Source of the DNA: Notolepis coatsorum
Lineage: Eukaryota; Chordata; Actinopteri; Aulopiformes; Paralepididae
Reading direction: 5' to 3'
Length of the DNA: 64,000 nucleotides
Assembly: GCA_963971535.1 (NCBI GenBank)
Contig: OZ020599.1
Span: 99,599,713 to 99,663,712, forward strand
Shown here: piece after piece, positions 19,095-62,240 of the stretch
How positions within the stretch are numbered: position 1 is the stretch's first letter
Layout: each line of letters opens with the position of its first letter
Notes under the pieces: generated by a model
What the model saw: the letters and a program-made list of their open reading frames with translations, nothing else
The model's database searches: none
What the model was told of the DNA's origin: nothing
Position numbers and translations under genes: made by a program

Positions 19095-19712
19095 TTAACA
19101 CTTTGGGTGCCTAGAAACGATTTACAACGTCTTTCCCGGCCATGCTCAAGGTGCCGAGGACGCTGTACAGCGTCTTTGATCTGTTTACATCTTTTTTCGA
19201 TTTTCCCCGTCTGAACTTCACCGCCGAGCTTTTGGAAGAAAATTTTAACCGGAAACTGCATTTCCTCTCAAATTTCACTAGGTGGCAGTGTCCCCCTATT
19301 TTCTAACACTATCACAATAGGGGGAATATTGTACCCCACAATGAATCTGGGATTTGATTGGCCAGCATACCTGGCCAATGTAACCACAGGTATAAAACGT
19401 TAGCGCGATCCCAGAATCTACGAGGTTTTGGAGGAGAGAGAGAGAGAGAGATAGATAGAGCGATAGAGAGAGAGAGAGAGATTGAGAGAGAGATTTGAAT
19501 TGAGATCAGCCTATAGTCTATATTTATAGTGTTATACAGTATAGTGGTAGTATCAGACTAATTGTAAGGTTTCAGCTGTGCTTTAGAAAGTACTTAGTCG
19601 TGCTAAGTAGTAGTACTATTCGAGGGATTAGTGTGTAGTCTAGGTAGTATATTTCAGTAGTAGTAATAGTAGTTTGATCAGTTAGTAGTTTCATTTAGAT
19701 TATTAGATCAGT

Positions 19713-20037
19713 ATGAAGAGACGTAGTGTAGGAAAGCGAGGGGACAATCCGGCGGCGGGTCGCTTTGTTCAGACGAAGCTGGCGTTTGGACCCGCGGTTG
19801 TTCAAGCAGCAGCAGCACCAACAGCACCAACGTCTTTGGTAGCTCCGATCGGAGAGAGCCGTGAGACCGTTGCTGGGCCCAGTAACGCGTCTCGCCCCGG
19901 GACCGGGAGCGGCTCTACCCGACGCAGTTCGAGGAAGAGGAAGGCTGCCGCTGTGGTCATAGCTTCTTCATGCGAGTCAGGGGACAGCGATTCGACCGCC
20001 CACGAATCTGATGGGAGCGCCGATTGGGAACCACCAG
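19713..20037 (+). CDS. piggyBac transposase, exon 1
   Basis: Starts at ATG 19713 (MKRRSVGKRGDN) and encodes a basic then Ala/Ser-rich N-terminus with an RRSSRKRK basic patch, a likely nuclear localisation signal. It ends in an acidic Ser/Asp stretch. The donor is CAG|GTAATT at 20038, leaving phase 1. The upstream leader 19430-19712 is GA-rich and then AT-rich. Confidence 0.75.
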
Positions 20038-20077
20038 GTAATTACACGGTCTTATATATATATATATATGTGTGTGT

Positions 20078-20340
20078 GTGAAACGTGTATTTGATGATTT
20101 ACATACTGTGACTATGTAACGTTAGTTCGACAAACCAACGGCGATATGCATGTGATTGTGTGTGTGTGTGAAACGTGTATTTGATGATTTACATACTGTG
20201 ACTATGTAACGTTAGTTCGACAAACCAACGCCGGCGATATGCATGTGATTGTGTGTGTGTGAAACGTGTATTTGATGATTTACCTACCGCTTATTCTGTG
20301 ACTATGTAACGTTAGTTTGCCAAACCTAACGCTGATATGC
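20078..20340 (+). repeat. 84-bp tandem repeat in piggyBac intron 1
   Basis: Three copies of a unit with GAAACGTGTATTTGATGATT and TATGTAACGTTAGTT. Confidence 0.9.
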
Positions 20341-20356
20341 ATTTATTATATTCTAG

Positions 20357-20464
20357 CTCCGGAATCATCTGACGATGATCTCGGCTTGGGTCGGAGGTAT
20401 GAGTCTGATTCATCGCACGATTCAGACGTGGGAGTCGGACACGGTGGTGGTCGACGGGGCAACG
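20357..20464 (+). CDS. piggyBac transposase, exon 2
   Basis: 108 nt, acceptor TTCTAG, donor G|GTACGT, phase 1 to 1. Encodes PESSDDDLGLGRRYESDSSH followed by a Gly-rich end. Its 3' end and donor are echoed in the 251-bp repeats that follow. Confidence 0.7.
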
Positions 20465-20483
20465 GTACGTCATGTTTACTAAT

Positions 20484-21056
20484 GCAATGTGAATATTGTT
20501 TTGTGCATGTTCAAATCGATAGTTGAATGATATAGGATATAGTAGGCATGTAGTACAGGCCACGCGACCATGTGCTACAGTTAGGTTGTCTTGTGTGCGT
20601 GTGTGTGTGTGTGTGCATGTGCACGCCCTTTGAAGTGGCTCTTTGAAGTGTGTAGCTATCATGTAAGTGATAATAGTTGCATGCTGGGCATGATACGACG
20701 TGGTGGTGGTGGTCGACGTGGTAATTGGTATGTTGCAATGTGAATATTGTTTTGTGCATGTTCAAATCGATAGTTGAATGATATAGGATATAGTAGGCAT
20801 GTAGTACAGGCCACGCTACCATGTGCTACAGTTAGGTTGTCTTGTGTGCGTGTGTGTGTGTGTGTGCATGTGCACGCCCTTTGAAGTGGCTCTTTGAAGT
20901 GTGTAGCTATCATGTAAGTGATAATAGTTGCATGCTGGGCATGATACGACGTGGTGGTGGTGGTCGACGTGGTAATTGGTATGTTGCAATGTGAATATTG
21001 TTTTGTGCATGTTCAAATCGATAGTTGAATGATATAGGATATAGTAGGCATGTACA
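20484..21056 (+). repeat. 251-bp tandem repeat in piggyBac intron 2
   Basis: Two full copies (20484-20734, 20735-20985) and a partial third, starting GCAATGTGAATATTGTTTTG. The unit ends with GTGGTGGTGGTCGACGTGG, a decayed copy of the end of exon 2. It includes GT microsatellites. Confidence 0.9.
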
Positions 21057-21416
21057 GGCCACTACATTTAGTTACATGGATGTGTGTGTGTGTGTGTGTG
21101 TGTAGATGCCTCACCCCATGCCATTTGATGTGTGTGTGTATGTGTGTGTGTGTGTGTGCAGTGTGTGTACACACACACACACACACAAGATCAAAAGACA
21201 TGCATCCTCTCCAACACCTTTGAACTTCGCAGTACATGGTGAGGCCTCTATATGCAAATTCCATTGATTACAGCACACACATACACAATGGCATGGGCAC
21301 ATGGCGAGGCCTATATTTAAATGCATGGTTGTGTACCATATGTAAAATTCCATTGATTACAACACACACACATGTACATGCTTTGATGGCCGCTGATTTA
21401 TTTTGTGTTCACACAG

Positions 21417-21464
21417 CAGAACACTCCGAAACCGAATCCGGGGCCAATACACAAACATGCTTGG
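21417..21464 (+). CDS. piggyBac transposase, exon 3
   Basis: 48 nt, acceptor CACACAG, donor G|GTATGT, phase 1 to 1. Encodes EHSETESGANTQTCL. Its short size makes it less certain than the others, but the phase fits exactly. Confidence 0.6.
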
Positions 21465-21553
21465 GTATGTACTAACTACATTTATGTATGTGTAAATGTA
21501 TTACTATTGTGTTTTGTGAGACTTACTTACTGAATGAATTTAATCCAATTCAG

Positions 21554-21625
21554 ATTCTGGCGCAGACCCTGCAGATAGTGATGCTGAGACTGGCAACGAC
21601 ATAGGATCACATTCTACTCCTGCAG
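21554..21625 (+). CDS. piggyBac transposase, exon 4
   Basis: 72 nt, acceptor AATTCAG, donor G|GTAATT, phase 1 to 1. Encodes DSGADPADSDAETGNDIGSH and a short tail, acidic like exon 2. Confidence 0.65.
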
Positions 21626-21640
21626 GTAATTGTACATGGT

Positions 21641-21838
21641 GGTGACTGGCTGCTGCTAGAGCCTGGGCCTGGTGGTAGCTGGCTGCTGCTAGAGCCTGGG
21701 CCTGGTGGTGACTGGCTGCTGCTAGAGCCTGGGCCTGGTGGTGACTGGCTGCTGCAGGGCCTGGGCCTGGTGGTGACTGGCTGCTGCAGGGCCTGGGCCT
21801 GGTGGTGACTGGCTGCTGCAGGGCCTGGTCTGGTGGTG
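21641..21838 (+). repeat. 30/33-bp minisatellite in piggyBac intron 4
   Basis: About six units with TGGTGGTGACTGGCTGCTGC and GCCTGGGCC, alternating between 33 and 30 bp. Confidence 0.9.
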
Positions 21839-21901
21839 ATGGTGGTAAATACAATGACAATGCGTTGCCCTAGTGTAATGTATTACATCATGTGATTCTA
21901 G

Positions 21902-21964
21902 AACTGGATGCTAGTCTGGACATGCCGGAACCCGTTGCAGGGCGGAAACGCACATCTAAGAGCG
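21902..21964 (+). CDS. piggyBac transposase, exon 5
   Basis: 63 nt, acceptor GATTCTAG, donor G|GTAAGT, phase 1 to 1. Encodes ELDASLDMPEPVAGRKRTSK, ending in a basic patch that continues into exon 6. Confidence 0.65.
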
Positions 21965-22140
21965 GTAAGTTGGCCTCACTCTGCACACCACTTCCAGCTC
22001 TGACCTCTGACCCCCACACCACGTCCAGCTCTGACATCTGAACCCCACACACACTCACTCATTCACTCACACAGTTTGTAACTACGTGGCATATGAATGT
22101 CTACAGTAGGGGTGTTATAGTATATTTGTATAATTGACAG

Positions 22141-23828
22141 GTCGTGGAGGAGCGAAGAGCAGGGCTGCGATCCGCCAGGAAGAGGAGAATGCCTGGTCTC
22201 ATGAGGGCTGGGTGCCTCAAAGGATCCCCTTCACAGCCCAACCGGGGTTGCTCCAGGACGCCAAGGCACTCAGATCTTACCGGCCTGCGAAATGGATGGA
22301 TCTGTTCCTGACAGATGCTTTTCTGAACTCTATTGTTGCCCAGTCCAACCTCTACGCTGAGCAGTCCATTGCCCGGCTGGACCCCACGCTAACCAGTAGC
22401 AGGGCACTGCTTTGGAAGCCCCTCACATTGAAGGAGCTGAAGAAGTTCCTCGGACTCCATTTCCATAGCAGTGTCCTGCGGAAGCCTCGCGTGGACCAGA
22501 TGTGGACCACTGACGACATGATGTACACACCGTACTACTCTGATACCATGCCACGCAACAGGTTCCAATTGATCTGGCGATTCCTCCACTTTGCGGACAA
22601 TACTTCCCTGGAGGTTAGAGACAAATTGTGCAAAGTACGCCCTGTAGTCGACCATGTAAACGCGAGGTGCAAGGAGCTGTACCAGCCTGAACGCGAGCTC
22701 GCCATTGACGAGGGGGTGATGGCATGGCGAGGCCGCCTGACCTTCCGGGTCTACAACCCCAACAAGCCCACCCGCTATGGCATCAAGTCCTACTTCCTGT
22801 GCGAATCACGCACAGGATATTGCTTTTCATTTAAGCCATATTGTCGGGAAGGCTCGCTCCTGGGGGACACGGTCGTCGGTCTGCTTGGACGTCTGTCTGG
22901 GGCCGGCTATACGCTCTTCATGGACAACTTCTACAACTCGGTACGTATGTCCGCCAGGCTCCGACAGTTGAGGACCGACGTCTGTGGTACCCTCAGGAAG
23001 CACCGGGGCGAGCCAGCCATCATCAAGAACATTACCAAACGTGACATCGGTGTGGGGGAGCGCATTGCGGTCAACAACAAGGAGGTCCTGATCGTGGCAT
23101 GGCGCGATAAGAGAATCGTGAAGACCATCAGCAGCTTCCACGAGGACACCATGGAAAAGGCGATGGTGTGGAAGAAGCAGAAGAAGGGCAAAGCGCTGAG
23201 GGTGGAGATGCTCAAGCCATCATCAATCCTGGAGTACAATAAATTCATGAACGGCGTCGATCAGCTGGATCAGAATATATCGTACTATCCGGTTACACGT
23301 AAGACTGGAAAGTGGACCAAAAAGTTTGTGATGTATCTGATCCAAATATGTATCTTCAACGCTTTTGTCTTGTACAAAAAAAAGCACCCACAAGGGCATT
23401 ACTCCAACCTCTTCCGGTTCACCAGGGCTGTGGCGCGGACCTACACAGACGGTAAGGAGAAGAAGATTCCTGGGGTGACAGCGGAGATGGAGGCGGAGGC
23501 GGAGGCAGGGGAGGAGGCAGGGGAGGAGGCAGGGGAGGAGGCAGGGGGTGGGGATGAGGAGGAGGCAGGGGCTGAGCAGGTGGGGCGTGTCGACCCTAGG
23601 GCCCCACTGGGGGACCCGCAGAGCAGATTAGTGGGTGGCTTTGTGAAGCATGTAATGGTTGCATACAAAGCCACCCCGAAGAAAAAGCTACCGTGTAGGA
23701 AATGTCGTGTCTGCAGTAGGCGTGGCGTCAGGAGTGAGACCAGATATTTTTGCACATCGTGCAAAGTCCCCCTGCATCGTGACAAATGCTTCGCTCTGTA
23801 CCACACAAAGAGGGATTTCTCTAAATAG
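22141..23828 (+). CDS. piggyBac transposase, exon 6 (catalytic domain)
   Basis: This exon carries the whole catalytic core of a PGBD4-like piggyBac transposase, which excises and inserts DNA at TTAA in the nucleus. With exons 1-5 it gives a continuous 767-residue protein (2304 nt including the TAG at 23826). The three catalytic acidic residues are present: Asp395 in ELAIDEGVMAWRGR, Asp467 in LFMDNFYNS and Asp579 in NKFMNGVDQLDQN. Typical blocks FRVYNPNKPTRYGIKSY and RKTGKWTKKF surround them. A Glu-rich low-complexity spacer (EAEAGEEAGEEAG) precedes the C-terminal cysteine-rich zinc domain (CRKCRVC...CTSCKVPLHRDKC). An upstream TTG would extend the frame, but the acceptor AATTGACAG at 22140 fits phase 1 from exon 5. 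Domestication is unlikely because intact TIRs flank the gene. Confidence 0.9.
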
Positions 23829-23959
23829 TTTCTTTATTAGTTGTCATACAGAAGTACAGACTACTTCTAAATAATCCGGCACACAGAAGTACAGATTACT
23901 TCTAAATAATCCATCATTGTGTGATACAGACAGAACCATGTGTACCGGTACATAGTATA

Positions 23960-24040
23960 GCTAGCTGAGTGTAGTATAGTATAGTGTAGTATAGTATAGT
24001 ATAGTATATTGTAGTATAGTATAGTATAGTATAGTGTATG
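23960..24040 (+). repeat. TATAG microsatellite
   Basis: About 14 units of TATAG with GTGTAG variants, 130 bp after the transposase stop codon. Confidence 0.9.
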
Positions 24041-24477
24041 GGTAGTTGCACTGTTTTCTGTACAAGACAAATGCGTTGAACACATGTATTTGGGCCACGG
24101 TTGTCGATATTGCATAGGCATGTTTGGACCACTTGCAGATGAGACGTTATGTTAGCGATCTAGCTGTATCGACTCCATTCATAATTTGCATTGTGTGTGT
24201 ATATAGTTTTTTTTTATTTATCTTTTTCCCCCCTCATTTTTACCGTTTGCACAGAACCAATGGTTGCTGACAGTCACCCAGTTTAAAAAAGTATATACTG
24301 TAGGTAACATACCACACTTTTCTAATGCAGTCCATTGGCCTATTATTTATATACTTTGGAAGCATGTATTGGATATTTTTTGGTCCACAGATCATCTGGC
24401 GCTTCATCCATTTATCAATGGACAATGCAGTCATCGATGCGAGAGACCAAGTAAGATATGCCCTGTAGTTCATGTGA

Positions 24478-26228
24478 CGTGAATGTTACCAGCAAACTTC
24501 TAAATGCACTGAAACAATGGTTGGTTATCCTCCAGTGTTCACTTTTTATAAGGTATTGTCTTTGTAAATTACCATAATCCTATACTGTGAATGTTACCAA
24601 CAAACTCCTAAATGCACTGACACAATGGTTGGTTATCATCAGCCAGTGTTCACTTTTTATAAGGTATTGTCTTGGTAAATTACCATAATCCTATACTGTG
24701 AATGTTACCAACAAACTCCTAAATGCACTGAAACAATGGTTGATTATCCTCCAGTGTTCACTTTTTATAAAGTATTGTATTGGTAAATGACCATAATCCT
24801 ATACTGTGAATGTTACCAACAAACTCCTAAATGCACTGAAACAATGGTTGATTATCCTCCAGTGTTCACTTTTTATAAGGTATTGTCTTGGTAAATTACC
24901 ATAATCCTATACTGTGAATGTTACCAACAAACTCCTAAATGCACTGAAACAATGGTTGATTATCCTCCAGTGTTCACTTTTTATAAGGTATTGTCTTGGT
25001 AAATTACCATAATCCTATACTGTGAATGTTACCAACAAACTCCTAAATGCACTGAAACAATGGTTGGTTATCATCACAGTGTTCACTTTTTATAAGGTAT
25101 TGTCTTGGTAAATTACCATAATCCTATACTGTGAATGTTACCAACAAACTCCTAAATGCACTGAAACAATGGTTGATTATCCTCCAGTGTTCACTTTTTA
25201 TAAGGTATTGTATTGGTAAATTACCATAATCCTATACTGTGAATGTTACCAACAAACTCCTAAATGCACTGAAACAATGGTTGATTATCCTCCAGTGTTC
25301 ACTTTTTATAAGGTATTGTCTTGGTAAATTACCATAATCCTATACTGTGAATGTTACCAACAAACTCCTAAATGCACTGAAACAATGGTTGATTATCCTC
25401 CAGTGTTCACTTTTTATAAGGTATTGTCTTGGTAAATTACCATAATCCTATACTGTGAATGTTACCAACAAACTCCTAAATGCACTGACACAATGGTTGG
25501 TTATCATCAGCCAGTGTTCACTTTTTATAAGGTATTGTCTTGGTAAATTACCATAATCCTATACTGTGAATGTTACCAACAAACTCCTAAATGCACTGAA
25601 ACAATGGTTGATTATCCTCCAGTGTTCACTTTTTATAAGGTATTGTATTGGTAAATTACCATAATCCTATACTGTGAATGTTACCAACAAACTCCTAAAT
25701 GCACTGAAACAATGGTTGATTATCCTCCAGTGTTCACTTTTTATAAGGTATTGTCTTGGTAAATTACCATAATCCTATACTGTGAATGTTACCAACAAAC
25801 TCCTAAATGCACTGAAACAATGGTTGATTATCCTCCAGTGTTCACTTTTTATAAGGTATTGTCTTGGTAAATTACCATAATCCTATACTGTGAATGTTAC
25901 CAACAAACTCCTAAATGCACTGAAACAATGGTTGGTTATCATCACAGTGTTCACTTTTTATAAGGTATTGTCTTGGTAAATTACCATAATCCTATACTGT
26001 GAATGTTACCAACAAACTCCTAAATGCACTGAAACAATGGTTGATTATCCTCCAGTGTTCACTTTTTATAAGGTATTGTATTGGTAAATTACCATAATCC
26101 TATACTGTGAATGTTACCAACAAACTCCTAAATGCACTGAAACAATGGTTGATTATCCTCCAGTGTTCACTTTTTATAAGGTATTGTCTTGGTAAATTAC
26201 CATAATCCTATACTGTGAATGTTACCAG
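24478..26228 (+). repeat. 108-bp satellite with higher-order structure
   Basis: About 16 head-to-tail monomers of 108 bp (111 in some), each with GTGAATGTTACCAACAAACT, ACAATGGTTG and CACTTTTTATAAGGTATTGT. Diagnostic variants recur every 4 monomers (about 434 bp), with an alternating pair every 8 (868 bp). Lies in the 3' part of the piggyBac element, upstream of an AATAAA at 26296. Confidence 0.95.
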
Positions 26229-26425
26229 CATATAATGCACAGCAACAATGGTTGGTACTGATGACTTGTCACCCAGTTTATTGAACATATTTTACAATAA
26301 AAATGTTCATGGCATCAAAGTTTCAAGTTTTTTGCATTGTAAAGTATTCTGTATTTTATAATAATGTTGTCTGGACCTACACCAGTAGTTATAAAACTTA
26401 CTTGTTCATTAGCGCCAGGCATATC

Positions 26426-26805
26426 AATCAAATGACCAACAAAGTAATCAATCAATCAAACAAATCAATCTATGAATCAAACTATCAACAAAACAATCAA
26501 ACATTCTATCAAGCAAATAACCAACAAAGTAATCAATCAATCAAACCAATCAATCTATGAATCAAACTATCAACAAAACAATCAAACATTCTATCAAGCA
26601 AACTATCAACAAAACAATCAAACATTCTATCAAGCAAACTATCAACAAAACAATCAAACATTCTATCAATCAAATGACCAACAAAGTAATCAATCAATCA
26701 AACAAATCAATCTATGAATCAAACTATCAACAAAATAATAAAACATTCTATCAATCAAACCAATAAAACAATCTGTCAAACAATCAATCAATCAAACCAT
26801 CCATC
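26426..26805 (+). repeat. ATCAA-rich compound minisatellite
   Basis: Tandem blocks of AATCAAACTATCAACAAAAC and CAATCAAACATTCTATCAA with ATCA microsatellite links. Open frames here (QNNQTFYQ repeats) are a by-product. Confidence 0.9.
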
Positions 26806-27329
26806 CATCCATCCCAGTCTAAATTGCTTTATAACACGTTCAGTACCTATTATCACCCCGCCGGCACACCTTTCATAAAAGTGCCTGTAACTTCTGTTCT
26901 AAATAATTTACCTCCACTTTTATCTTTTGTTGACGTTTTTTAACTTGTAATTGTGAACGAACGAAGACATGCAGAAACAAACGTTTTTTTGCATTGTGTA
27001 CATCAACTTGTCGTCTTCAAATGAGCCCAACCATTTCCCCATAGTTATAATATAAAATATAGAAATAGCTCCGCTAAGATCATGAGATATGCTAGAATCG
27101 TCCAGGAATCCTGGCAACCCACAGTCATTTTCCGGATTTTTGGCCGGCACCCAAAGTGTTAACATAAGCAACAACGGCCTTGAAAAAACACTGACAATCA
27201 GAAGTTTGAATAAAATAGTCCTCAGCTGCGTTTTAAAAGGCATCAACAGACTGCAGAACGTATGTCTATAGGATCTTAATATGTAGACAGGTATACAGTA
27301 TGTGAAAACAAGTACATTAACTCATTCAG

Positions 27330-35755: not shown

Positions 35756-36600
35756 TGCTGGCCTCTACTTCCTAAGGAAGTTCCAAGTCAGTCAGAAGAT
35801 CCTTAAGAACTTCTACTCATGTACAGTAGAGAGCATCCTGACTGGCAACATCACCTCCTGGTTTGGGAATAGCACTGCACAAGACCAAAGCAGACTACAA
35901 AGAGTGACACGTTCAGCCGAACACACAATTGGAGGGGGGCTCCCCACCCTCCAGAACATTTACAACAAGCGGTGCAGGGGCAAGGCTAAGAGAATCATTA
36001 AGGACTCCAGCCACCCGAACAACTGCCTCTTTGAACTGCTGCGGTCAGGCAAGCGATACCAGAGTCTCAAGGCGAGCACAGAAAGACTCAGAAGAAGCTT
36101 CTATCCCCAGGCCATCAGGCTGCTCAACGAACAATGAACACTACACAACAACCATCAAACGCACATAGCACACACATCCACACGCACACACTCACTTTAA
36201 ACAAACACTGTAGCACCAACTCCCCACACTTTATATTTATTGATAAAGGATTTGCACTACAACTCGTACACCTTACTGTAAATTGTACCTAAATTGTACC
36301 TCATCCCATTTCTGCTTTGCACTATATAGTATTGTATATTAGTACACTGCATAGGATATTGTATATTATATGGTAACTCAGTTATGTCTATTCTGCATCG
36401 AACATTGTACATATGTCTATACTGAACATTGTGACCTCATTTTCTACTCCTAATTTACATGCTATACTATGTTATTTGATACTTATCTTGTCTAGCACAG
36501 TCTCTGGAGCGTAACAGTAAGAAGCATTTTGTATAAAAGTATTCTGTACTTCTGTATGACAACTATTAAAGAAACTTGAACTTGAAACTTGAAACTCAAG
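35756..36600 (+). pseudogene. Rex1-like LINE, 3' part (5' truncated)
   Basis: Frames encode FYSCTVESILTGNITSWFGN and then IYNKRCRGKAKRIIKDSSHP, ending with RSFYPQAIRLLNEQ and a stop at 36135. A 460-bp noncoding tail follows, ending in ACTTGAA repeats. Same family as 38905-40045. Confidence 0.8.
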
Positions 36601-37309: not shown

Positions 37310-37462
37310 TTTCAATAACCCTTTCACTACCACACTACAGAAGGTTGACCCTTTCACTACCACACTACAGAAGATTAACCCTTTCACTACCACACTACAG
37401 AAGGTTAACCCTTTCACTGCCACACTACAGAAGATTAACCATTTCACTACCACACAGAAGGT
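37310..37462 (+). repeat. 30-bp minisatellite, short array
   Basis: Five units of ACCCTTTCACTACCACACTA plus CAGAAG. Same consensus and orientation as 60020-61735 and opposite to 2241-2520. Confidence 0.93.
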
Positions 37463-38904: not shown

Positions 38905-40062
38905 CAAGTCAAGTCAAGTCAAGTCAAGTCAAGAGTTTTAATTGTCACGGCATACAGGTATACAATGAAATGCGGCTGGTCTTGCCCGCGACGATGTGCA
39001 ATACAGTGGTACAACATATAATAGAATCCAATAAAAATACAGTGGTACAGCATATAATAGAATCCAATAAAAACAACAGTGCAATAAACAGGTAACATGG
39101 TGTGCCATCTCGATATCTGTACATAGTATTTACAGAGCATATAGGACATGCTAGGTAGCTTTAGTAGTGCAATACACTGTTCCTGTTGTTTTACTAATTT
39201 AAAGTGGCCTTTCCTCTGGCCATAAGTGTGCGTGTGTGCGGCATGAGTGTTAAAGTGGCTGCTAGTGTGTGAGCGTGCTCAGCGTGCGTGTCGTGTGTGT
39301 GCTTGTGTGTGCTTGTGTGTGGATAGTTCAGTTTCTGTGTCTCTCAATGTTCATTGTTCAAGGCTCTGATGGCCTGGGGGAAGAAGCTTAGCCTAAGCCT
39401 CTCCGTCCTAGTAGCTGGGGTTCGCAGGCGTCTGCCTGACCTCAGCAGCTGGAACAGGCTGTTATTGGGGTGGTGGGGGTCTTTCATTATCCTGCAGGCT
39501 CTGGATTTGCACCTCTTGTTGTATAGAGCCTGCAGGGGAGGTAGCGCAATACCCGTGGTACGCTCGGCTGAGCGCACCACTCTCTGTAGGGCCTTCTTGT
39601 CCTGTGCCGTGCTGTTCCCATACCAGGCAGTGATGTTTCCGGTCAAGATGCTCTCTACAGCTCCTGAGTAGAAGGACTGGAGTATCTTCCCCGATACTCT
39701 GAACTTCCTTAACTGTCTCAGGTGGTAGAGGCGCTGCTTCGCTTTCTTTACTACTGTGTCTATGTGTGTTGACCATGTCAGATCCTCTGAGATGTGGACC
39801 CCCAGGTACTTGAAGCTGCTCACCCTGTCCACGGTAGCCCCGTTGATCATCAGTGGTGGGTGTGTCTCCTGCTGTCCTCTCCTATAATCCACGATCAGCT
39901 CCTTGGTTTTACCAATGTTCAGGAGCAGGCTGTTGTCCTGGCACCAACGTTCCAGTACCTCAACCTCCTCCCGGTAGGCCTTCTCGTCGTTTATAATTCC
40001 GTGGCCAACGTTAGATGATTCATGTAGTGTGGGTGATATGATCATCAGAGCAGTTTGTATCG
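38905..40062 (-). mobile_element. Rex1-like LINE, 3' part
   Basis: Minus-strand element: ORF2 C-terminal half (39344-40045), about 440 bp of 3' sequence (TTTTAATTGTCACGGCATAC on the plus strand), and a TCAAG pentanucleotide tail at 38905-38933. 5' truncated. Confidence 0.8.
39344..40045 (-). pseudogene. Rex1-like LINE ORF2 C-terminal half
   Basis: 233 open residues covering the RT thumb and C-terminus: LNIGKTKELIVDYRRGQQET, SSFKYLGVHISEDLTWSTHI, ESILTGNITAWYGNSTAQD, ALYNKRCKSRACRIMKDPHH and the end SFFPQAIRALNNEH. The catalytic palm is missing through 5' truncation. No internal stops, so the insertion is fairly young. Confidence 0.85.
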
Positions 40063-40698
40063 AACACGGTCATAATAAACGCTGAAACTTACCCCAGTCT
40101 CCTCGGGCCGTTGGGCGATGAGCGTGGAGCAAAAAGATTGCTATTATAATAATAATAATAATAACTTTATTTGTATAGCACTTTTCATACAGAGGTTGCA
40201 GTTCAAAGTGCTTCACAACAGTAAAGAATACAGGCATAAGCGGGCATAAAAAAGATAGACAGGTAGCAAGGTATGGCAAATCACAGTGTTTCACATTAGG
40301 ATCTAGCATCCCAATAGGCTCTCCGCTTACAGTTTTCAATAATACAAATAATAAAAATAGTTTAAAATGATTCAGTTTAAAAATTGTCTAAAAATTATAA
40401 AATAGAACGGACATAATAAATACAGGCATGAGCGAGTATAGCAAGGTATGGTAAATCACAGTGTTTCACATTAGGATCTAGCATCCTAATAGGCTCTCTA
40501 TTCAGTAATACAAATAATCACAGTGTTTCACATTTGGAAAAATAGTCATCAGTAAGAAGTAAAAAGTGCGATAACCGACACATGAATTTGATAGGCAGTG
40601 TATAAGAGTAGGCAGGGTAAGAATAGTGCAGGTAAGTACAAGTTGTGTCAGGATATCCCTGATGTTTCCTCTTGCCACTAGGTGGTAGCAGATATCTA

Positions 40699-42003
40699 TC
40701 AGTGAAATGCCTGAGCAAAGAGATAGGTTTTAAGCTGTCTTTTAAAGATGTCTAGCGAGTTGGCTTCTCTCATGTTTTGGGGTAGTTTGTTCCATAGTTT
40801 TGGTGCATAGTTGATAAAAGCTGCATTACCAATCCTCTTTTGACTGCTTCTGGGAGCCTCTAGTAGTCCAGCAGCTGATGATCGCAGTGTTCTTGCTGGT
40901 GTGTAATTTATTCGAGTGTTGGCGATGTAGCTAGGTCCCTGTCCATTTAGAGCTTTGTATGTAAGGAGAAGGACCTTAAAGTCAATTCTAAATGTTACAG
41001 GAAGCCAGTGTAAAGCAGCTAAGACTGGACTAATGTGCTCTCTCCTTTTGGTTCTAGTTAGCAGTCGGGCTGCAGAGTTTTGGATTAGCTGAAGCCTCTC
41101 TGTGGTTTTCTTAGGGAGACCTGTGAAAAGTGCATTACAGTAGTCTAACCGGCTAGATATGAATGCATGAATTAGCTTCTCAGCATCGTTCTGATTAATA
41201 AATGGTCGTACTTTTGCTATATTTCTGAGATGGAAGAACGATGTTTTCGTCACTTTGCTAATATGAGAATTGAAGTTCAGTTCTGAATCTATGATAAACC
41301 CGAGACTAGTGACCTCAGATTTGATCCAAGGGGTTAGTCCCCCCAGGTTCTTTATTAATGTTTCTTTTTTAGTTTTGGAGCCGATAATTAGAATTTCAGT
41401 TTTGTTCTCGTTTAGTTTCAGGAAGTTCTTACTCATCCATTTATTTATTGCCAGTAAGCAGTCTGTAATGGAGCTAATCGCGGTATCATTTGGTTCAGCA
41501 GATATGTACAGTTGTGTATCATCCGCATAGCTATGGAAATCTACATTATGTTCTCTGATGATATCACCCAGCGGTAACATGTAAAGGGAGAAGAGTAAAG
41601 GACCTAAGCAACTCCCTTGTGCAACTCCATAGTTGTTGTCGTATATATCAGACATGTGATCTCCTAGTTTAACATAGAATTTCCTCCCTCTGATGTATGT
41701 TTTAAACCAGCCTAGCACATGTTCTGAGAAACCGACATGGTTTTCAAGACGATCGATTAGAATATCGTGATCGATTGTATTAAATGCTGCACTGAGATCT
41801 AGCAGGATAAGGATGGAGATCTTATTCTCGTCAGAGTTTAGTCTGAGGTCACTGATTATTTTGGTGAGGGCAGTTTCAGTGCTATGATATTTTCTGAATC
41901 CCGACTGAAATTCTTCTAAGATGTTGTTTTCTTCAAGAAAGGAATTTATTTGAACTGAAACTATCTTTTCAAGTACTTTACTAATGAATGGTAGGTAGGA
42001 TAT
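40699..42003 (-). pseudogene. L2-like LINE reverse transcriptase, catalytic part
   Basis: From the hAT insertion point at 42003 the frame is open to 40699. It encodes ISYLPFISKVLEKIVS, LLDLSAAFNTIDH (motif A), GVAQGSCLGPLLFSLYM, YADDTQLYIS (catalytic YADD), SRLDYCNALFTGLPKKT, LAALHWLPVTFRIDFKVLLL and the end FKRQLKTYLFAQAFH. The latter blocks are hallmarks of vertebrate L2 elements. Removing 740 bp (hAT plus one target copy) restores the frame to the upstream part. Confidence 0.9.
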
Positions 42004-42735
42004 CAGGCCACGTGAGCGGATCGGCGCGGCCGAGAAATCCGCTCTTCGCTCTTTAAAGCTTGGTCCGCTCCGCTAGTCGCTCATGTTGACCCCGCCCCCA
42101 AGTCGCTCTCCGCTCCCTCACCGCTCACCTTGAATCGAGCGATCCCCGCTCCCCGCGCCAGATCGCTCTGCTTTTTTTTTTCTTCTTTTTTTCTTTTTGG
42201 AGCATGGTGTAAATTAGCTCAAACTACAACAGTCTACATCCCCTGGGCCCCTTAACAATTGTTTGTATTGAGCCGCATTGTAATTGTACCCATTCTGCAA
42301 TGTTAAATAACGTTGTTTATCCATTCACTAGCTCTATTAAGCGATGATAGTTAGCCGAGCCACAATGCTATGGTCGCTGCCATTAACGTTAGCATGTAAG
42401 CTAACAACAACAACAATGGCGTCGATACTTTTCTAACATCCTGTGAGTGACAAAGCCTGAACAGGATATCACAGGTTCACCCTTCTCAATTCTCATTGGT
42501 TGAAAATGGCCTTCATGTTTGTACATCGCCATCTGTTGCTTTGGCATTGTACTACATGTATATTATTACATCAGTGTTAAACCACTGTGTGAGCGGCCCG
42601 GAGTGGATTGGAGCGGAGGAGAACTCTCGCTCCGGACGTCGCGCCGACCCATTTTAAAACCCACTCCTCGCTCACGTCAAAACCGCCCGCTCCGCTCCCC
42701 GCGCCGCTCACGCTCCGATCCGCTCACATGGCCTG
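42004..42735. mobile_element. hAT MITE inserted in L2 ORF2, 732 bp
   Basis: Ends CAGGCCACGTGAGCGGATCG and CAGGCCATGTGAGCGGATCG (reverse complement), one mismatch. Perfect 8-bp target duplication TAGGATAT at 41996-42003 and 42736-42743. Subterminal regions are rich in GAGCGGAGCG-type motifs. Noncoding. Confidence 0.97.
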
Positions 42736-43943
42736 TAGGATATTGGACGATAATTTGCCATTTCATTACTATCCAAGTTAGGTTTTTTTAGTAATGGCTT
42801 TACAACTGCTGTTTTAAAGGCATCTGGGAAAAGACCAGTCCTAAGGGAAGTGTTTATGATATCTAGCACAGGGCTTGAAACACTATTAAACACCCGTTTG
42901 AAGAAGGCTGTAGGTATAGGGTCAATGTCTGAGGTGGAGGAGATACATTCTGAGACAGTTTTGCAGAGTACATCTAATGTGATGCATGTGAAACTTCTCA
43001 TGGTTACATTGCACGGTTTGCCGCAATCAGCTTTATTTCCATCATGAGTAATGCTGGCCCTGATCAAGGTTATTTTGTTGTTAAAGAATAGTGCAAGTTC
43101 TTCACACTTAACCGTTGATGGCTGAGGAGGTGTAGGGGCAGTGTTGAGTAGTACATTAATAGTGGAAAAAAGGATTCTGGAGTTTCCAGCATTTTCTGTA
43201 ATGATTTTAGAGAAGTAATCTTTCCTTGCTAAGCGGATGGTTTTATTATAAACAGTTAAAGCATCTTTGTATATATCACAGCATATGGTGGTTTTAGTTT
43301 TTCTCCATTTTCGCTCCGCTGCACGACATTTCCTTTTTTCTTCGTTGACCGTATTATAGTTCAACCAGGGCAAGGCTCTAGTTTTCTTCTTTTTCATTTT
43401 TAATGGGGCGACAGAATTTAATATAGATGACATTGCATCATTGAGATTTTCTACCATTTCATTTAGAGAGCTGTCATGATTGTGTGGTTCATGTAGTCTG
43501 ATAAGATCAATGAACTTTGATTCAGCCTTGTCGTTTAGGAGTCTCTTTTGAACTATGATTTCTTTTTTTGTTTTAGTAAGGGTTATTTGAGTATAAAAAA
43601 ATATACAGTGATGGTCGGAGAGAGGTAATTCAGTTATTGAGATATTTGTTATGCTTAGCCCAGTTGTTGTTATAACTAAGTCTAGTGTATTCCCAAGCCT
43701 GTGAGTTGCATTTGTTATATGCTGTATTAGGTCAAAGCTATCCAGTAGATTTTTTAGTTCTATAGTTTTGGAGTCTGTTTTCTTATTAAAATGGATGTTC
43801 AAGTCTCCATTTAGGATCACCTTATCATATCCGGTAACACATAGTGAGATCAGTTCAGAGAGCTCCTGTATAAATATTGGTGAGTGTCTAGGCGGGCGGT
43901 ATATTGTGACGAATAGTTGATTCTGTTTTGAGCTCAATGGCAA
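42736..43943 (-). pseudogene. L2-like LINE ORF2: end of endonuclease and start of RT
   Basis: Encodes FVTIYRPPRHSPIFIQELSE, ILNGDLNIHFNKK (catalytic GDLN), LPLSDHHCIFF (catalytic SDH), a linker with LARKDYFSKIITENAGNSRI, and RT entry NEMANYRPISY. Interrupted there by the hAT MITE. The 5' portion of the endonuclease lies in another frame (43888-44295). Confidence 0.85.
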
Positions 43944-44295
43944 GATATTCCATCGACATGAACTCGCCTAGTTCTGTGATTCTAAACAAGAGTTTTGAGG
44001 AGAAGATTGCTGCAACTCCTCCCGCTCTTGTATTTTTTCTGGGTATTTGAAAAAAGTTATAGTCTGGTGGACAAGCTTCTATCATTATTGATGTAGCTGT
44101 GTCATTATTTAGCCATGTCTCTACTAGGCAGATGCAATCTAAGTTATTTTCTTTAATCAGATCATTTACTAAGAATGTTTTATTATTCAGTGATCTGACA
44201 TTTAGGAGGGCTAATTTTATTTGTTGGACTTCTTTAGAGGAGGTCTGCTTTGGCTTGACCTTGATGGCCCTGAGGTTAATAGCAGGTAAACGCAT
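43888..44295 (-). pseudogene. L2-like LINE ORF2: N-terminal endonuclease part
   Basis: Encodes KLALLNVRSLNNKTFLVNDL (catalytic Asn), CICLVETWLNN (catalytic Glu) and GGVAAIFSSKL. It overlaps the next frame near 43930, where a one-base shift separates the halves. Confidence 0.85.
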
Positions 44296-44419
44296 TGATG
44301 GCGTATATTTTTCACCATGCCATTGGCTGGTTATGATTACCGGTATGTTTTGAGAGATGGCATGGCAATTGTGCTATACTGCACCGTACTGACTGTACTG
44401 TGCTTTCGGGGACATTTGA

Positions 44420-45043
44420 TCAGACGAGATGGCCTTGTGTGATATGGGGGGGGGGGGGGGGGGGGACGCCTTGTGCTGCTGCTGCACCTCGTGGCGAGAT
44501 TGTGTCCTTCGTGATTATCTCTAGTACTGGTATGAGTTTGATATTCGTGGAGGCCATTAAGGCATGACGCATGTTTGCTGCTAGAAACCTCGAACCTAAG
44601 CGATTTGGGAAGAAGCCATTTCTTTGAAAACTTTCTGGGTTATTCCAGAAAACATTGAAGTTGTTAATGAATTTCAGGCCGTGTATAAGACATGCAGACC
44701 CTAACCATGAATTAAAATGTAGGAGTCGACTAAAGGCTTCTTGTCCTCTGCGAAAGCATGCAATTGGTCCACTGATGGACACATCAGTGTCTATGTACAC
44801 AGACTGATGTTTGTCTAGTGTGTTCATTAAAGGTGTGAAATCGGCTTTCAAAGTCTCTGTGCCAGTCTTCTTTCGCAGGATGTCAAACGATCCAGAGTGA
44901 ATGACAATTTTTGTTATGCCCGGTCTGATTAGTGTTGGAAGTATTTCGGCCAGCTCTTTCACAGATGTGTTGTCTAGACAGATATGTTCTGTGTTTGCCA
45001 TCTCCACATACCTTGTTGTGGAATCTCCAATCAGTATGCAGTC
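44420..45043 (-). pseudogene. L2-like LINE ORF1: esterase domain
   Basis: Begins with ILIGDSTTRYVEM (the GDS block of SGNH esterases, just outside the Met-initiated frame) and continues with GITKIVIHSGSFDIL, DVSISGPIACFRRGQEAFSR, NFNVFWNNPE and NGFFPNRLGSRFLAANMRH. Esterase-type ORF1 is known in CR1/L2 LINEs. A frameshift at about 45031-45043 separates it from the N-terminal part. Confidence 0.75.
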
Positions 45044-45891
45044 TGTTTTCTGTGTGAGGTTAGCATTTTTCTTTCCAACAGTTTTGGGGCCGTTTGTTTT
45101 TGGGCTAGGCCTAGCCTGCCGGTTCTTACCACAGTCCTGGGGCCTTGGTGAAGCCTCGCTAGCCTTCTCAATAGCCGCATGTTAACGCTGGTCCCGTACC
45201 TTCGGCGTTGGCTACCACAACGTTCTCCTTGGCGCATGGTAGTCTCTTCGCTGTTAGCCGTTAGCTCAGTCTGGGTCGTGTTTGCTAGCCGTGTCGCGCG
45301 TGGCTCTGTTTTCCTCGTCGTCTCGTCGTTAGCGTGTGCTCCGATGTGCCGGCTGTTAGCTTCGCTAGCATTAGCGTGAGCTCCGGCATACAAGCTGTTT
45401 GCTTCGCTAGTGTTAGCGTGAGCTCCGGTATTCCTGCTATTAGCATCGTTAGCGTGAGCTCCGTTCCGCTCGCTGTTTGCTTCGCTAGCGTCGTTAGCCA
45501 CGCTTCTATGTCTCTTTGCTTTTGGTGTTGATATGCGTGTTTCCGAGAGTAGGTTGAAACTATTTACTGGCGGTACCGGGGGCGAGGTAATAGTCGTGTT
45601 TCTGGTTCGTTTATTTCTCCTTTTATCCTTGACGGTGGTCCACTGCTTTGGTCTAGCTCCTTGCTTGTGCCAGGGACCGTCTTTTGGGTGGTGCTGTTCT
45701 GTAACTCGCCTAGGCCAGGTCTCAATCATGGTAGCATTGGCTATATTTGTAGTAGCTTCAAAAATAGAGTCAATGAGTCGCTCATCCTGTTGGATTTGGT
45801 GCAGGATAGTAACTCGAGCCTCCAGCTCTACAATCCTTTTACTCATCCTCATGCAGCTAGTACATTCTGTGGGAGAGCCGAGTCCCGGCAT
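45031..45891 (-). pseudogene. L2-like LINE ORF1: N-terminal part
   Basis: 286 residues starting MPGLGSPTECTSCMRMSKRI. It has a short coiled-coil-like stretch (IVELEARVTILHQIQQDERL), a basic region and an internal 14-residue repeat (SEANS....GAHAN, about four copies, near 45335-45480). It ends in a TGA caused by the frameshift before the GDS block. Confidence 0.75.
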
Positions 45892-58260: not shown

Positions 58261-59300
58261 ATAAGATAAGATATTCCTTTATTGATCCCCTTGGGGAAAT
58301 TCAGGCAACATAGCAGCATGGGGGAAGGGGGGGGGGGGTACAGGTAGTAAAAACAACACAAGCAGTGTAAACAAATAGGTCAATATAATTTACTATCTAA
58401 CTAACTGAAATATATATTCACAGTATTCACAGTGTTCACAAGCTTGTTGAGCTTGTTGGTGTCCCTTGAGTTGATGTAGCCTCCCCATCATGCCACAGCA
58501 TAGAAGAGGACGCTGGCCACTACAGACTGGTAAAATGACTGCAGCAGTCTATTGCACACGTTGAAGGACCTGAGTCTCCTCAGGAAGAACAGCCTGCTCT
58601 GTCCCTTCCTGTAGAGGGCCTCTGTGTTATCCGACCAGTCCAGTTTATTGTTCAGGTGTACCCCAAGGAACTTATATGAGTCCACCACCTCCACCTCCTC
58701 CCCTCGGATGGTGATGGGAATCGGGGGGGGGGCTCTTCTTGCCCCTCCGGAAGTCCACCACCAGCTCTCCTTGGTCTTACTGGTGTTGAGTTGGAGGTGG
58801 TTGCTGTCGCTCCACCCCACAAAGCTCTCCACCAGGGCTCTGTACTCCTCCTCATCATCGTCGGTGATGTAGCTTACGATGGAGGAGTCGTCTGAGAACC
58901 TCTGCAGGTGGCACCCGCTTGAGTTGCGGCAGAAGTCTGAGGTATAGAGGGTGAAGAGGAAGGGTGACAGCACAGTTCCTTGGGGGGCGCCGGTGTTGCT
59001 CACCAGTACGTCAGACTGACTGTCCTTTAGTCTGACGTACTGCAGTCTCTCAGTGAGGTAGTCCTTGATCCAGGCCACCAAGCCGTGCTCCAGCTGCATC
59101 GCAGAGAGCTTCTCCGCTAGCAGTGACGGCTGGATGGTGTTGAAGGCGCTGGAGAAATCAAAGAACATAATCCTCACTGAGCTGCGCGGCTTCTCCAGGT
59201 GCATGTATGCTATGTGGAGCATGTAGATGATGGCGTCCTCCACCCCAATGTTTGCCTGGTATGCAAACTGCAGGGGGTCGAGGGAGTCACACACCAGATG
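58261..59300 (-). mobile_element. Rex1-like LINE, 5' truncated
   Basis: Minus strand: RT palm to C-terminus (58488-59294) and a 230-bp 3' end with GATATTCCTTTATTGATCCC (plus strand) at 58270 and a G10 run. No target duplication found. Confidence 0.85.
58488..59294 (-). pseudogene. Rex1-like LINE reverse transcriptase fragment
   Basis: 268 residues: DPLQFAYQANIGVEDAIIYM, IMFFDFSSAFNTIQPSLLAE (motif A), NTGAPQGTVLSPFLFTLYTS (motif B), LQRFSDDSSIVSY (catalytic FSDD), SNHLQLNTSKTKE, and YKFLGVHLNNKLDW. These blocks are typical of Rex1, a CR1-related fish LINE. A frame disturbance follows KTKESWW (PPPI region, near 58728). The N-terminal endonuclease is absent. Confidence 0.88.
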
Positions 59301-60017: not shown

Positions 60018-61735
60018 GTTAACCCTCTCACTACCACACTATGGAGGGTTAACCCTTTCACTAACACACTACGGATGGTTAACCCTTTCACTATGGATGG
60101 TTAACCCTTTCACTACGGAGGGTTAACCCTTTCACTACAACACTACATAGGGTTAACCCTTTCACCAACTCACTACATATGTATTTAACCCTTTCACTAC
60201 CACACTATAGAGGTCTTTAACGTGTTCACTACCACACTACAGAAGGTTAACCTTTCACTACCACACTACAGAGGGTTAACCTTTCACTACCACACTACAG
60301 AAGGTTAACCTTTCACTACCACACTACAGAGGGTTAACCTTTCACTACCACACTACATATGGTTAACCTTTCACTACCACACTACAGAGGGTTAACCTTT
60401 CACTACCACACTACAGAAGGTTAACCTTTCACTACCACACTACAGAGGGTTAACCTTTCACTACCACACTACAGAGGGTTAACCTTTCACTACCACACTA
60501 CAGAGGGTTAACCTTTCACTACCACACTACAGAGGGTTAACCTTTCACTACCACACTACAGAAGGTTAACATTTCACTACCACACTACAGAAGGTTAACC
60601 TTTCACTACCACACTACATAGGGTTAACCTTTCACTACCACACTACAGAGGGTTAACCTTTCACTACCACACTACAGAAGGTTAACCTTTCACTACCACA
60701 CTACAGACGGTTAACCTTTCACTACCACACTACAGAGGGTTAACCTTTCACTACCACACTACAGAGACCTTTCACTACCACACTACAGATGGTTAACCTT
60801 TCACTACCACACTACAGAGGGTTAACCTTTCACTACCACACTACAGAGGGTTAACCTTTCACTACCACACTACAGAAGGTTAACCTTTCACTACCACACT
60901 ACAGAGGGTTAACCTTTCACTACCACACTACAGAGGGTTAACCTTTCACTACCACACTACAGAAGGTTAACTCTTTCACTACCACACTACAGAAGGTTAA
61001 CCTTTCACTGCCACACTACAAATGGTTAACCCTTTCACTACCACACGACACAAGGTTAACCTTTCACTACCACACTACAGACGGTTAACCTTTCACTACC
61101 ACACTACAGAAGGTTAACCTTTCACTACCACACTACAGACGGTTTAACCCTTTCACTACCACACTACAGAAGGTGAACCTTTCACTACCACACTACAGAA
61201 GGTTAACCTTTCACTACCACACTACAGAAGGTTAACCTTTCACTACCACACTACAGATGGTTTAACCCTTTCACTACCACACTACAGAGGGTTAACCTTT
61301 CACTGCCACACTACAAAGGGTTAACCCTTTCACTACCACACGACACAAGGTTAACCTTTCACTACCACACTACAGACGGTTAACCTTTCACTACCACACT
61401 ACAGAAGGTTAACCTTTCACTACCACACTACAGACGGTTTAACCCTTTCACTACCACACTACAGAAGGTTAACCTTTCACTACCACACTACAGAAGGTTA
61501 ACCTTTCACTACCTCACTACAGAAGGTTAACCTTTCACTACCACACTACAGATGGTTTAACCCGTTCACCTCCACACTACAGAGGGTTAACCTTTCACTG
61601 CCACTCTACAATGGGTTAACCTTTCACTACCACACTACAGACGGTTAACCTTTCACTACCACACTACAGAAGGTTAACCTTTCACTACCACACTACAGAT
61701 GGTTAACCCTTTCACTACCACACTACAGATGGTTA
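60018..61735 (+). repeat. 28-30-bp minisatellite, about 60 units
   Basis: Tandem TTAACCTTTCACTACC plus ACACTACAGAAGG, with edge units of the longer TTAACCCTTTC form. Variants differ mainly at the AGAAGG/AGAGGG/AGACGG/AGATGG position. Lies in the intron between 58040 and 62478. Confidence 0.97.
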
Positions 61736-62240
61736 ACCGTCAGAAGGTAAACACTGCAGCCGTGTTTAGTCATCTCTTTTCATTTAGGCTGAAAGTGCTT
61801 TCTGAGTGGTTGAACAGTGAGGTGTTCGCCCGCTGTGGTTTGATGCTTTCATGAGTTGGTCTTTTGACTACTTGATGTGTTAAAATGTGGCGTCTTGTTA
61901 AGTCCAACACCAGCCTTTAATGCAGCGCCTGCTCCCGCCGCTCCAGCTATCGCTTTCTTTTTGCATTTTAATTCTAATCTACCAACAGGTAATTGAATTG
62001 CGTCTTCATGCATAATGCACTGTACTGTTTAATATGGAACAACGGAAATTACTTTTGTTTTCATGAAGAATCAACATAAATTTACATCAAAAAGTGTTCG
62101 ATTATAAGACACTTTTTTTTTATCCAAATTGTTTTTGTTCTGTGTGTAATTTTACTGAAGAAGCTGAGATGTTTACTAAAAATGAAGGATGAATATCAAT
62201 AAGGCGCTTTTTTAGTAACAATCAACAGTAATACTGATCA
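61736..62240. other. Intronic stretch, nothing recognised
   Basis: No convincing feature. Confidence 0.3.

Follow-up and report, generated by a model that had tools for sequence, protein, structure and literature searches.

The 64-kb window of the Notolepis coatsorum genome analysed here contains a piggyBac-type transposon of 8.1 kb (19095-27162; Table 1), an intact-looking cut-and-paste element. It is of a known kind and resides in a vertebrate. The original prediction had described TTAA flanks and perfect 13-bp inverted ends; we located both, and the terminal repeats match at 13 of 13 bp. TTAA at both ends and terminal inverted repeats place the element in the piggyBac superfamily, and because all piggyBac ends adjoin TTAA, the flanking pair is not proof of a single insertion: one insertion and two merged insertions look alike by TTAA. 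With up to two mismatches allowed, the end 13-mer occurs at just two sites in the window, both perfect, with about 1.5 expected by chance. Searches with blastn (E up to 0.01) found no further copy of the element within the window, where nothing outside it matched except 43 bp at 36534-36576, and the longest match between the interiors of the left and right ends is just 6 bp.

Table 1. Features of the Notolepis piggyBac-type element (window positions; LE and RE, left and right end)
Feature	Position	Strand	Remarks
Left target tetranucleotide TTAA	19095-19098		
Left terminal inverted repeat, 13 bp, CACTTTGGGTGCC	19099-19111	+	
Predicted transposase site 1: GCCTAG (LE bp 11-16) and imperfect palindrome AACGATTTACAACGTC (bp 18-33)	19109-19131	+	5/8 pairs
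Predicted transposase site 2: GCCGAG (LE bp 55-60) and perfect 16-bp palindrome GACGCTGTACAGCGTC (bp 61-76)	19153-19174	+	8/8 pairs
TATAAA box, candidate promoter	19391-19396	+	
Exon 1	19713-20037	+	residues 1-108
Exon 2, 108 nt, acidic	20357-20464	+	acceptor uncertain, 20426 scores better
251-bp tandem repeat, intron 2	20483-21054		bears copies of exon 2 end and donor site
Exon 3, 48 nt, acidic	21417-21464	+	
Exon 4, 72 nt, acidic	21554-21625	+	acceptor uncertain, 21566 and 21575 score better
Exon 5, 63 nt	21902-21964	+	
Exon 6: whole DDE transposase core, acidic linker, cysteine-rich domain	22141-23828	+	
Segment aligned to piggyBat Differential Binding Loop (DBL)	23151-23219	+	residues 543-565
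Coding minisatellite, 12-bp unit; acidic linker joining core to cysteine-rich domain	23489-23571	+	
Putative relic of second piggyBac transposase, C-terminal piece	23908-23943	-	
Putative relic of second piggyBac transposase, antisense to gene	24051-24093	-	84% identity over 43 nt
Putative relic of second piggyBac transposase, core piece	24394-24469	+	
108-bp minisatellite, 1.75 kb	24479-26227		16 copies, higher-order unit 433 bp
Candidate polyadenylation signal, first AATAAA or ATTAAA past stop codon	26296-26301	+	
Right-end GCCAGG (RE bp 44-49), overlapping palindrome CCAGGATTCCTGG (bp 45-57)	27102-27115	-	
Right-end GCCGGC (RE bp 11-16)	27143-27148	-	
Right terminal inverted repeat, 13 bp, exact reverse complement of CACTTTGGGTGCC	27146-27158	-	
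Right target tetranucleotide TTAA	27159-27162		

Removal of five GT-AG introns, all in phase 1, joins six predicted exons of 325, 108, 48, 72, 63 and 1688 nt into 2304 nt encoding 767 residues with a single terminal stop, reproducing the uninterrupted frame that had been proposed. An upstream exon is needed, since the first methionine of exon 6 alone is residue 258, within the transposase domain. No ATG lies between the TATA box and the start codon, a property equalled in 12 of 1000 shuffles. Pfam assigns residues 256-614 to DDE_Tnp_1_7 (PF13843; 5.6e-79) and residues 719-760 to zf-Tnp_2 (PF13842; 25.8 bits against a cut-off of 24), and the N-terminal 236 residues match no Pfam family at E up to 1. 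The three catalytic aspartates (D395, D467 and D579) and the cysteine-rich C-terminus were found as foreseen, and D582 is also present. Only two distinct solved sequences were matched, the nearer being piggyBat (1.9e-101 versus 9.5e-34 for Trichoplusia ni piggyBac). Frame, Pfam domain, piggyBat match and catalytic residues together support the original prediction: a piggyBac transposon whose transposase frame is intact and spread over several exons.

Five cysteines and three histidines of the cysteine-rich domain are conserved with piggyBat, counts that would suit a Cys3His1 plus a Cys2His2 set of zinc ligands. The Differential Binding Loop of piggyBat, as defined in a passage of PMC13405395, aligns with a segment that is five residues longer than piggyBat 382-399 and carries K551 in place of R390; the gap of this alignment was shifted by hand. 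Counterparts could be assigned for four piggyBat core residues that read the motif: R185 is unchanged, and D186, R189 and K134 are replaced by N, Q and R, respectively.

The ends of the element follow the piggyBat plan of motif plus palindrome. Passages of PMC11707139 and PMC13405395 place piggyBat motifs at LE bp 11-16, 55-60 and 99-104 and at RE bp 12-15 and 44-48, and describe left-end DNA bending near bp 25 and 69. The Notolepis ends match at LE 11-16 and 55-60 and at RE approximately 12-15 and 44-48, and the left-end palindromes have their centres at 25.5 and 68.5; the motifs are 44 bp apart at the left end and 33 bp apart at the right, versus 32 by the piggyBat coordinates in those passages. 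The repeated left-end unit, whose motif letters GCCKAG were picked after looking at the sequence, scores 26, a value reached by none of 2000 mononucleotide shuffles (best, 24). Among the 125 16-mers of LE bp 1-140, at least five of eight palindromic pairs form only at starts bp 18 and 61. Across 200,000 shuffles, the frequency was 0.00057 for GCCNAG at LE 55, 0.0057 for GCC at RE 44 and 0.00024 for a palindrome of at least 14 bp near bp 69. Two GCCNAG motifs separated by 38 bp occur once in the window, both strands counted, and that occurrence is this left end.

Other parts of the plan differ. There is no counterpart of the third left site, as LE 99-104 reads TCGATT and LE 107-120 forms 0 of 7 pairs, and inverted right-end motifs are not evident (ATCCGG at RE 22-27, TCTAGC at RE 63-68); in the passages cited, the third site and the inverted motifs are known as features of piggyBat itself. 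The second palindrome sits 1 bp off the position predicted from the 44-bp period of piggyBat, bp 63-76, where 2 of 7 pairs form, and extra GCC trinucleotides occur within the first 200 bp at LE 41, LE 125 and RE 15. The ends, the frame, the catalytic and conserved Cys/His residues and the motif positions are established by the sequence. We consider the element likely to be a member of the piggyBat group within the piggyBac superfamily, a DNA transposon that looks autonomous and would assemble in a piggyBat-like way; it is perhaps still mobile.

Within the 3' third, both strands carry what read as degraded fragments of a second piggyBac transposase (23908-24469). These pieces are absent from the original prediction. 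Over the whole region 23829-24478, the best relic match on each strand was reached in 0 of 500 shuffles; the three stretches that were shuffled separately had been selected after a first homology search. The two minus-strand pieces match by blastn at 1.6e-06 and 0.010. The relic reading is weakened by tblastn E-values of only 0.094, 0.21 and 9.3, and by the lack of a Pfam match for any of the three pieces at E up to 1. The antisense piece, in the 3' UTR, has a predicted duplex with the coding sequence of -40.6 kcal/mol. The description of the element as complete and intact thus holds for the gene and the ends but not for the 3' region.

We give somewhat less than even weight to the reading that the element is an immobile fossil, once active, with its 3' half rebuilt by insertions so that its ends stem from different insertions or are too altered to function, which is compatible with membership in the piggyBat group. 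The relics point this way, as do the 1.75-kb minisatellite, the 43-bp stretch shared with 36534-36576, which starts at the stop codon, and the distance of 2.47 kb from the stop to the first AATAAA or ATTAAA; merged neighbouring insertions would likewise show TTAA at both outer ends. Against it, the 767-residue frame is uninterrupted with all catalytic and shared Cys/His residues kept, and the ends match perfectly and both contain ordered motifs.

It is rather unlikely that exons 2-5 are partly not real as drawn, with exon 1 spliced directly to exon 6 to give 670 residues or with alternative acceptors in use. Exons 1 and 6 do join in frame, both junctions being phase 1, and a simple matrix gives low scores to the acceptors of exons 2, 4 and 5 (-3.9, -4.2 and -5.2); in-frame acceptors that score higher lie at 20426 for the exon 2 donor and, for the exon 4 donor, at 21566 and 21575. 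However, predicted exons 2, 3, 4 and 5 rank 9, 1, 8 and 6 among 116 in-frame candidates, and their GC content (0.51-0.58) exceeds that of the introns (0.27-0.47) except intron 4 (0.59). Residues 109-208 also contain 9 CK2-like sites versus 4.3 expected (48 of 5000 shuffles). Over residues 1-205 the count is 11 versus 6.6 expected, 11 being reached in 153 of 5000 shuffles, and three of the four mini-exons bear such sites. The claim of an acidic N-terminus survives for exons 2-4 (net charge -4, -3 and -6) but not for exon 1 (+5) or exon 5 (0). As had been noted, exons 2-5 are multiples of three in phase 1, and the predicted skipping of each in frame is possible on arithmetic alone. Tandem arrays make up 1106 of the 1812 intron bases. 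An origin of the introns by tandem duplication of a splice-site pair was rejected, as the donor and acceptor flanks of each intron are unlike (scores reached in 351, 508, 768, 106 and 145 of 1000 shuffles).

No intron interrupts the transposase domain, which sits wholly in one exon; all five precede it. A passage of PMC3902484 (2013) gives a one-exon domain for all piggyBacs except PGBD5 and the ciliate piggyMacs, so the introns, originally called unusual, are a milder oddity: only the part preceding the domain is split, and the domain itself is whole as in most piggyBacs. Among the matches listed, titles and the starts of abstracts contained no mobile piggyBac with a split N-terminus, in a search whose scope excluded Repbase and most subscription papers, and we claim no novelty for this feature. 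A domesticated piggyBac-derived host gene, retained for its N-terminal exons, is very improbable: the multi-exon structure is typical of PGBD5 according to a passage of PMC3902484, but the Notolepis element shows none of the PGBD5-type traits (loss of the ends, introns within the domain, loss of catalytic residues), with inverted ends and TTAA intact, the domain unsplit and, unlike PGBD5 as described there, all catalytic aspartates kept.

For the favoured reading of a piggyBat-group transposon, we infer transposase binding, end assembly, splicing and mobility as follows. The left-end TATA promoter would drive a spliced transposase mRNA, and transposase dimers would bind the two tandem left-end sites, the core on GCC[T/G]AG and two cysteine-rich domains on the palindrome. 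The transposase would also bind the two GCC motifs of the differently built right end, synapse the unlike ends, excise the element at TTAA via a hairpin and reinsert it at TTAA. The split serine/acid-rich N-terminus may be a disordered autoinhibitory region. This piggyBat-like end layout gives a testable idea of how transposase assembles on the ends.

In the passages of PMC11707139 and PMC13405395, such end geometry is reported for piggyBat alone. A core identity of 39% with the same motif coordinates and different letters would suggest that members of the group share an asymmetric two-dimer assembly, and the element would supply a natural left end without the inhibitory third site. If it is spliced as predicted, the skippable N-terminal exons would allow a direct test of splicing control in a DNA transposon. 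One can speculate further that phase-1 mini-exons, kept or skipped in frame, act as a splicing dial yielding isoforms with graded phospho-inhibition, for example a transposase less inhibited in the germ line; that the 44-bp left and 33-bp right motif spacings reflect an asymmetric piggyBat tetramer design across the group; and that the antisense 3' UTR relic could add RNA-level self-silencing. The joint reading of a self-carried splicing dial, a group-wide tetramer design and antisense self-silencing is a long shot.

Among known systems, piggyBat of Myotis lucifugus (PDB 9c0f) resembles the element in sequence, with 150 of 387 core residues (38.8%) and 33 of 74 residues of the C-terminal domain identical, in the common Cys/His pattern, in an insert at the DBL position and in the placing of G-type motifs, which in element numbering occupy bp 11-16 and 55-60 of the left end and bp 11-16 and 44-49 of the right. 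It differs in its motif (GCGGGA versus GCC[T/G]AG), in having the third left site at bp 99-104, which the element lacks, and in its second palindrome, which in the element lies 1 bp nearer the tip; by the published passages it has 572 residues in one ORF versus 767 in six exons, and a length computed at approximately 2.6 kb (586 bp, 572 codons and 324 bp) versus 8.1 kb. T. ni piggyBac (PDB 6x67/6x68) shares the superfamily domain, TTAA and DDD residues, but its match is far weaker, with the C-terminal domain unaligned in the structure-relative search and gaps at the DBL insert. A scan of viral contigs with the exon 6 protein, which catches close relatives only, gave no match. PGBD5, in the passage of PMC3902484, is likewise a piggyBac-derived gene with introns, and in lancelet it has tandem repeats copying splice sites, likened there to 'mirages'; its introns cut the domain, three of four catalytic aspartates are lost and inverted ends are absent, whereas the Notolepis element has a one-exon domain and keeps aspartates and ends. 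PGBD3 in CSB, as far as the source describes it, also splices upstream exons to a one-piece transposase domain, but its upstream exons come from the host gene CSB, whereas those of the Notolepis element lie inside the transposon.

The original prediction placed a complete piggyBac transposon with a six-exon transposase gene at 19095-27162; its gene and ends are indeed intact, but the 3' region is cluttered. TTAA lies on both sides, followed inwards by CACTTTGGGTGCC at each end (13 of 13 positions identical), and searching the window for this 13-mer with at most two mismatches returned two sites, both perfect, which are the element ends. The predicted exons join into a 2304-nt frame for 767 residues whose only stop is the last codon, and the claimed introns are all GT-AG and phase 1 (5/5 each). 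Pfam identified DDE_Tnp_1_7 in residues 256-614 (5.6e-79) and zf-Tnp_2 in residues 719-760 (1.6e-05). Judged by sequence and predicted splicing, this is a piggyBat-group piggyBac transposon with intact gene and ends, adding one more member to an already known kind.

A search of the whole PDB with the exon 6 protein (E up to 0.001) matched two distinct sequences, the closest being the transposase of piggyBat from Myotis lucifugus (9c0f, 1.9e-101), with T. ni piggyBac at 9.5e-34 (6x67). Identity to piggyBat is 150/387 in the aligned core and 33/74 in the C-terminal domain. D395, D467 and D579 align with D237, D309 and D413, the piggyBat active-site residues in the available text of PMC11707139. 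Eight C-terminal residues are common to both proteins (H709, C727, C730, C743, C746, H751, C755 and H760), and these five Cys and three His are as many as Cys3His1 plus Cys2His2 would require. The Differential Binding Loop of piggyBat, M382-P399 in the accessible part of PMC13405395, has its aligned counterpart at residues 543-565, a segment over which T. ni piggyBac is gapped. Among the motif-reading core residues of piggyBat, R185 is kept, D186 is replaced by N, R189 by Q and K134 by R; for the motif-reading residue R497 no position could be assigned in the alignment. Motif position 13, contacted by D186 in piggyBat, is C in all four motifs here and G in piggyBat, and the two replacements could represent a co-change, in a single case.

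The transposase domain is entirely within exon 6, whose first in-frame Met, residue 258, already lies inside the domain, so an upstream exon is needed. Exon 1 begins at the first ATG downstream of a TATAAA box at 19391, and the ATG-free stretch between them recurred in 12 of 1000 dinucleotide shuffles. When 116 in-frame internal-exon candidates were ranked with a simple splice matrix, exons 2, 3, 4 and 5 came 9th, 1st, 8th and 6th; ranks 2 to 5 were candidates sharing the predicted donors with different acceptors, and the matrix gives low scores to the predicted acceptors of exons 2, 4 and 5. Exons 1 to 6 hold 2, 3, 2, 4, 0 and 8 CK2-like sites, with 11 in residues 1-205 (6.6 expected; 153/5000 shuffles) and 9 in residues 109-208 (4.3 expected; 48/5000). 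Removing N-terminal CK2-like sites raises the activity of piggyBac and piggyBat (PMC11707139, in part). On the boldest reading of these predicted exons, autoinhibition of the transposase may be under splicing control. According to the available portion of PMC3902484, the transposase domain is one uninterrupted ORF in all piggyBacs except PGBD5 and the ciliate piggyMacs; because its introns lie outside the domain, the element agrees with this rule, unlike PGBD5.

On the introns and MINISATELLITES: five tandem arrays cover 1106 of 1812 intron bases, and the 89-bp intron 3 contains no array. The 251-bp repeat of intron 2 contains two copies of the exon 2 end with its donor site (29 aligned columns, 0/300 shuffles). 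In its duplicated splice-site sequence it resembles the 'mirages' of lancelet genes, with which repeats of lancelet PGBD5 have been compared (PMC3902484, as far as available).

Three decayed fragments of another piggyBac transposase, in opposite orientations, lie between the stop codon and the right end. When the stretch of each fragment was shuffled 1000 times, no shuffle reached its score, and across the whole region 23829-24478 the best match per strand exceeded all 500 shuffles. Judged by protein alone, they match poorly (tblastn E 0.094, 0.21 and 9.3), and Pfam returned no match to them. The computed pairing of the antisense piece with the coding sequence, -40.6 kcal/mol (shuffled mean -10.4, 0/1000), follows from the piece's origin and is no evidence of function. 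Among ten variant polyadenylation hexamers sought up to 24480, AAAAAG at 24286 alone was present. A 43-bp stretch from the stop codon, 23827-23869, recurs at 36534-36576 (93%); we take it to resemble a LINE 3' end.

Coordinates of features within the element and elsewhere in the window
Feature	Position	Strand	Details
251-bp tandem repeat, intron 2	20483-21054		duplicated 5' splice sites
Second-piggyBac piece	23908-23943	minus	81% over 36 nt
Second-piggyBac piece	24051-24093	minus	84% over 43 nt
Second-piggyBac piece	24394-24469	plus	
108-bp minisatellite	24479-26227		16 copies
First AATAAA or ATTAAA past stop codon	26296		
Reverse-transcriptase ORF	191-2113	plus	640 residues; RVT_1 24.7 bits, below cut-off of 29.6
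Minisatellites, 22 to 30 bp	2246-2519, 37316-37455, 60067-61738		140 bp to 1.7 kb long
Non-LTR retrotransposon pieces	39344-45891, 58488-59294	minus	endonuclease and RVT_1 matches
Pfam ALKBH8_N label	39347-40045, 58491-59294		on or beside reverse-transcriptase-like ORFs
Metabotropic glutamate receptor exon	62487-63449	plus	at window end

Elsewhere the window holds several reverse-transcriptase ORFs, and the 640-residue one with a weak RVT_1 match is presumably Penelope-type. The ALKBH8_N label is probably a misnamed LINE motif. By eye, the three short-unit minisatellites look like one unit, CACTAC... with GGTTAACC. For the glutamate receptor exon the nearest solved structure is mGluR4 (E 8.2e-179), and the third-position GC of the exon is 0.93. 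From this exon and the several reverse-transcriptase ORFs we infer that the host is a vertebrate.

The ends were compared with those of piggyBat, numbering bp inwards from each tip (left-end bp 1 is the C after TTAA). A repeated unit occupies the left end, as GGTGCCTAG-A-AACGATTTACAACGTCTTT at bp 8-36 and GGTGCCGAG-GACGCTGTACAGCGTCTTT at bp 52-79; its score of 26 was reached in 0/2000 mononucleotide shuffles (best 24). Within the second unit, bp 61-76 form a perfect 16-bp palindrome, one of 19 in the 64-kb window, 5 of which use all four bases. The first holds an imperfect one at bp 18-33 (5/8 pairs), and these two are the only 16-mers of 125 in left-end bp 1-140 with at least 5 pairs. GCCTAG and GCCGAG lie at left-end bp 11-16 and 55-60, GCCGGC and GCCAGG at right-end bp 11-16 and 44-49.

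Several features do not fit piggyBat. Its third left-end site is absent at bp 99-104, bp 107-120 show 0/7 palindromic pairs, and its inverted right-end motifs are not evident in the right end here. Further GCC occur in the first 200 bp at left-end 41 and 125 and right-end 15. The palindrome scan strengthened the palindrome evidence and also revealed a one-bp offset: spacing is 43 bp here versus 44 bp in piggyBat, and bp 63-76, where a 44-bp period would put the second palindrome, match at 2/7 pairs. As the third piggyBat site reduces activity in human cells (available text of PMC11707139), we infer that the left end here would resemble the more active, shortened piggyBat version.

In that text, the piggyBat core-bound motif occupies left-end bp 11-16, 55-60 and 99-104, each followed three bp downstream by an imperfect palindrome, with truncated motifs at right-end bp 12-15 and 44-48. 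The first two left-end positions are the same here, and the right-end sites are at 11-16 and 44-49 versus 12-15 and 44-48. Our palindrome centres are 25.5 and 68.5; a later transpososome preprint (PMC13405395, in part) describes bends in the piggyBat left end near bp 25 and bp 69. In 200,000 shuffles of each 140-bp end with bp 1-16 fixed, GCCNAG at left-end 55 had a frequency of 0.00057, GCC at right-end 44 of 0.0057, both together of zero, and a palindrome of at least 14 bp near bp 69 of 0.00024, values that are somewhat flattering because the motif letters were picked after inspection, the positions coming from published work. The end geometry common to this element and piggyBat is the most useful result.
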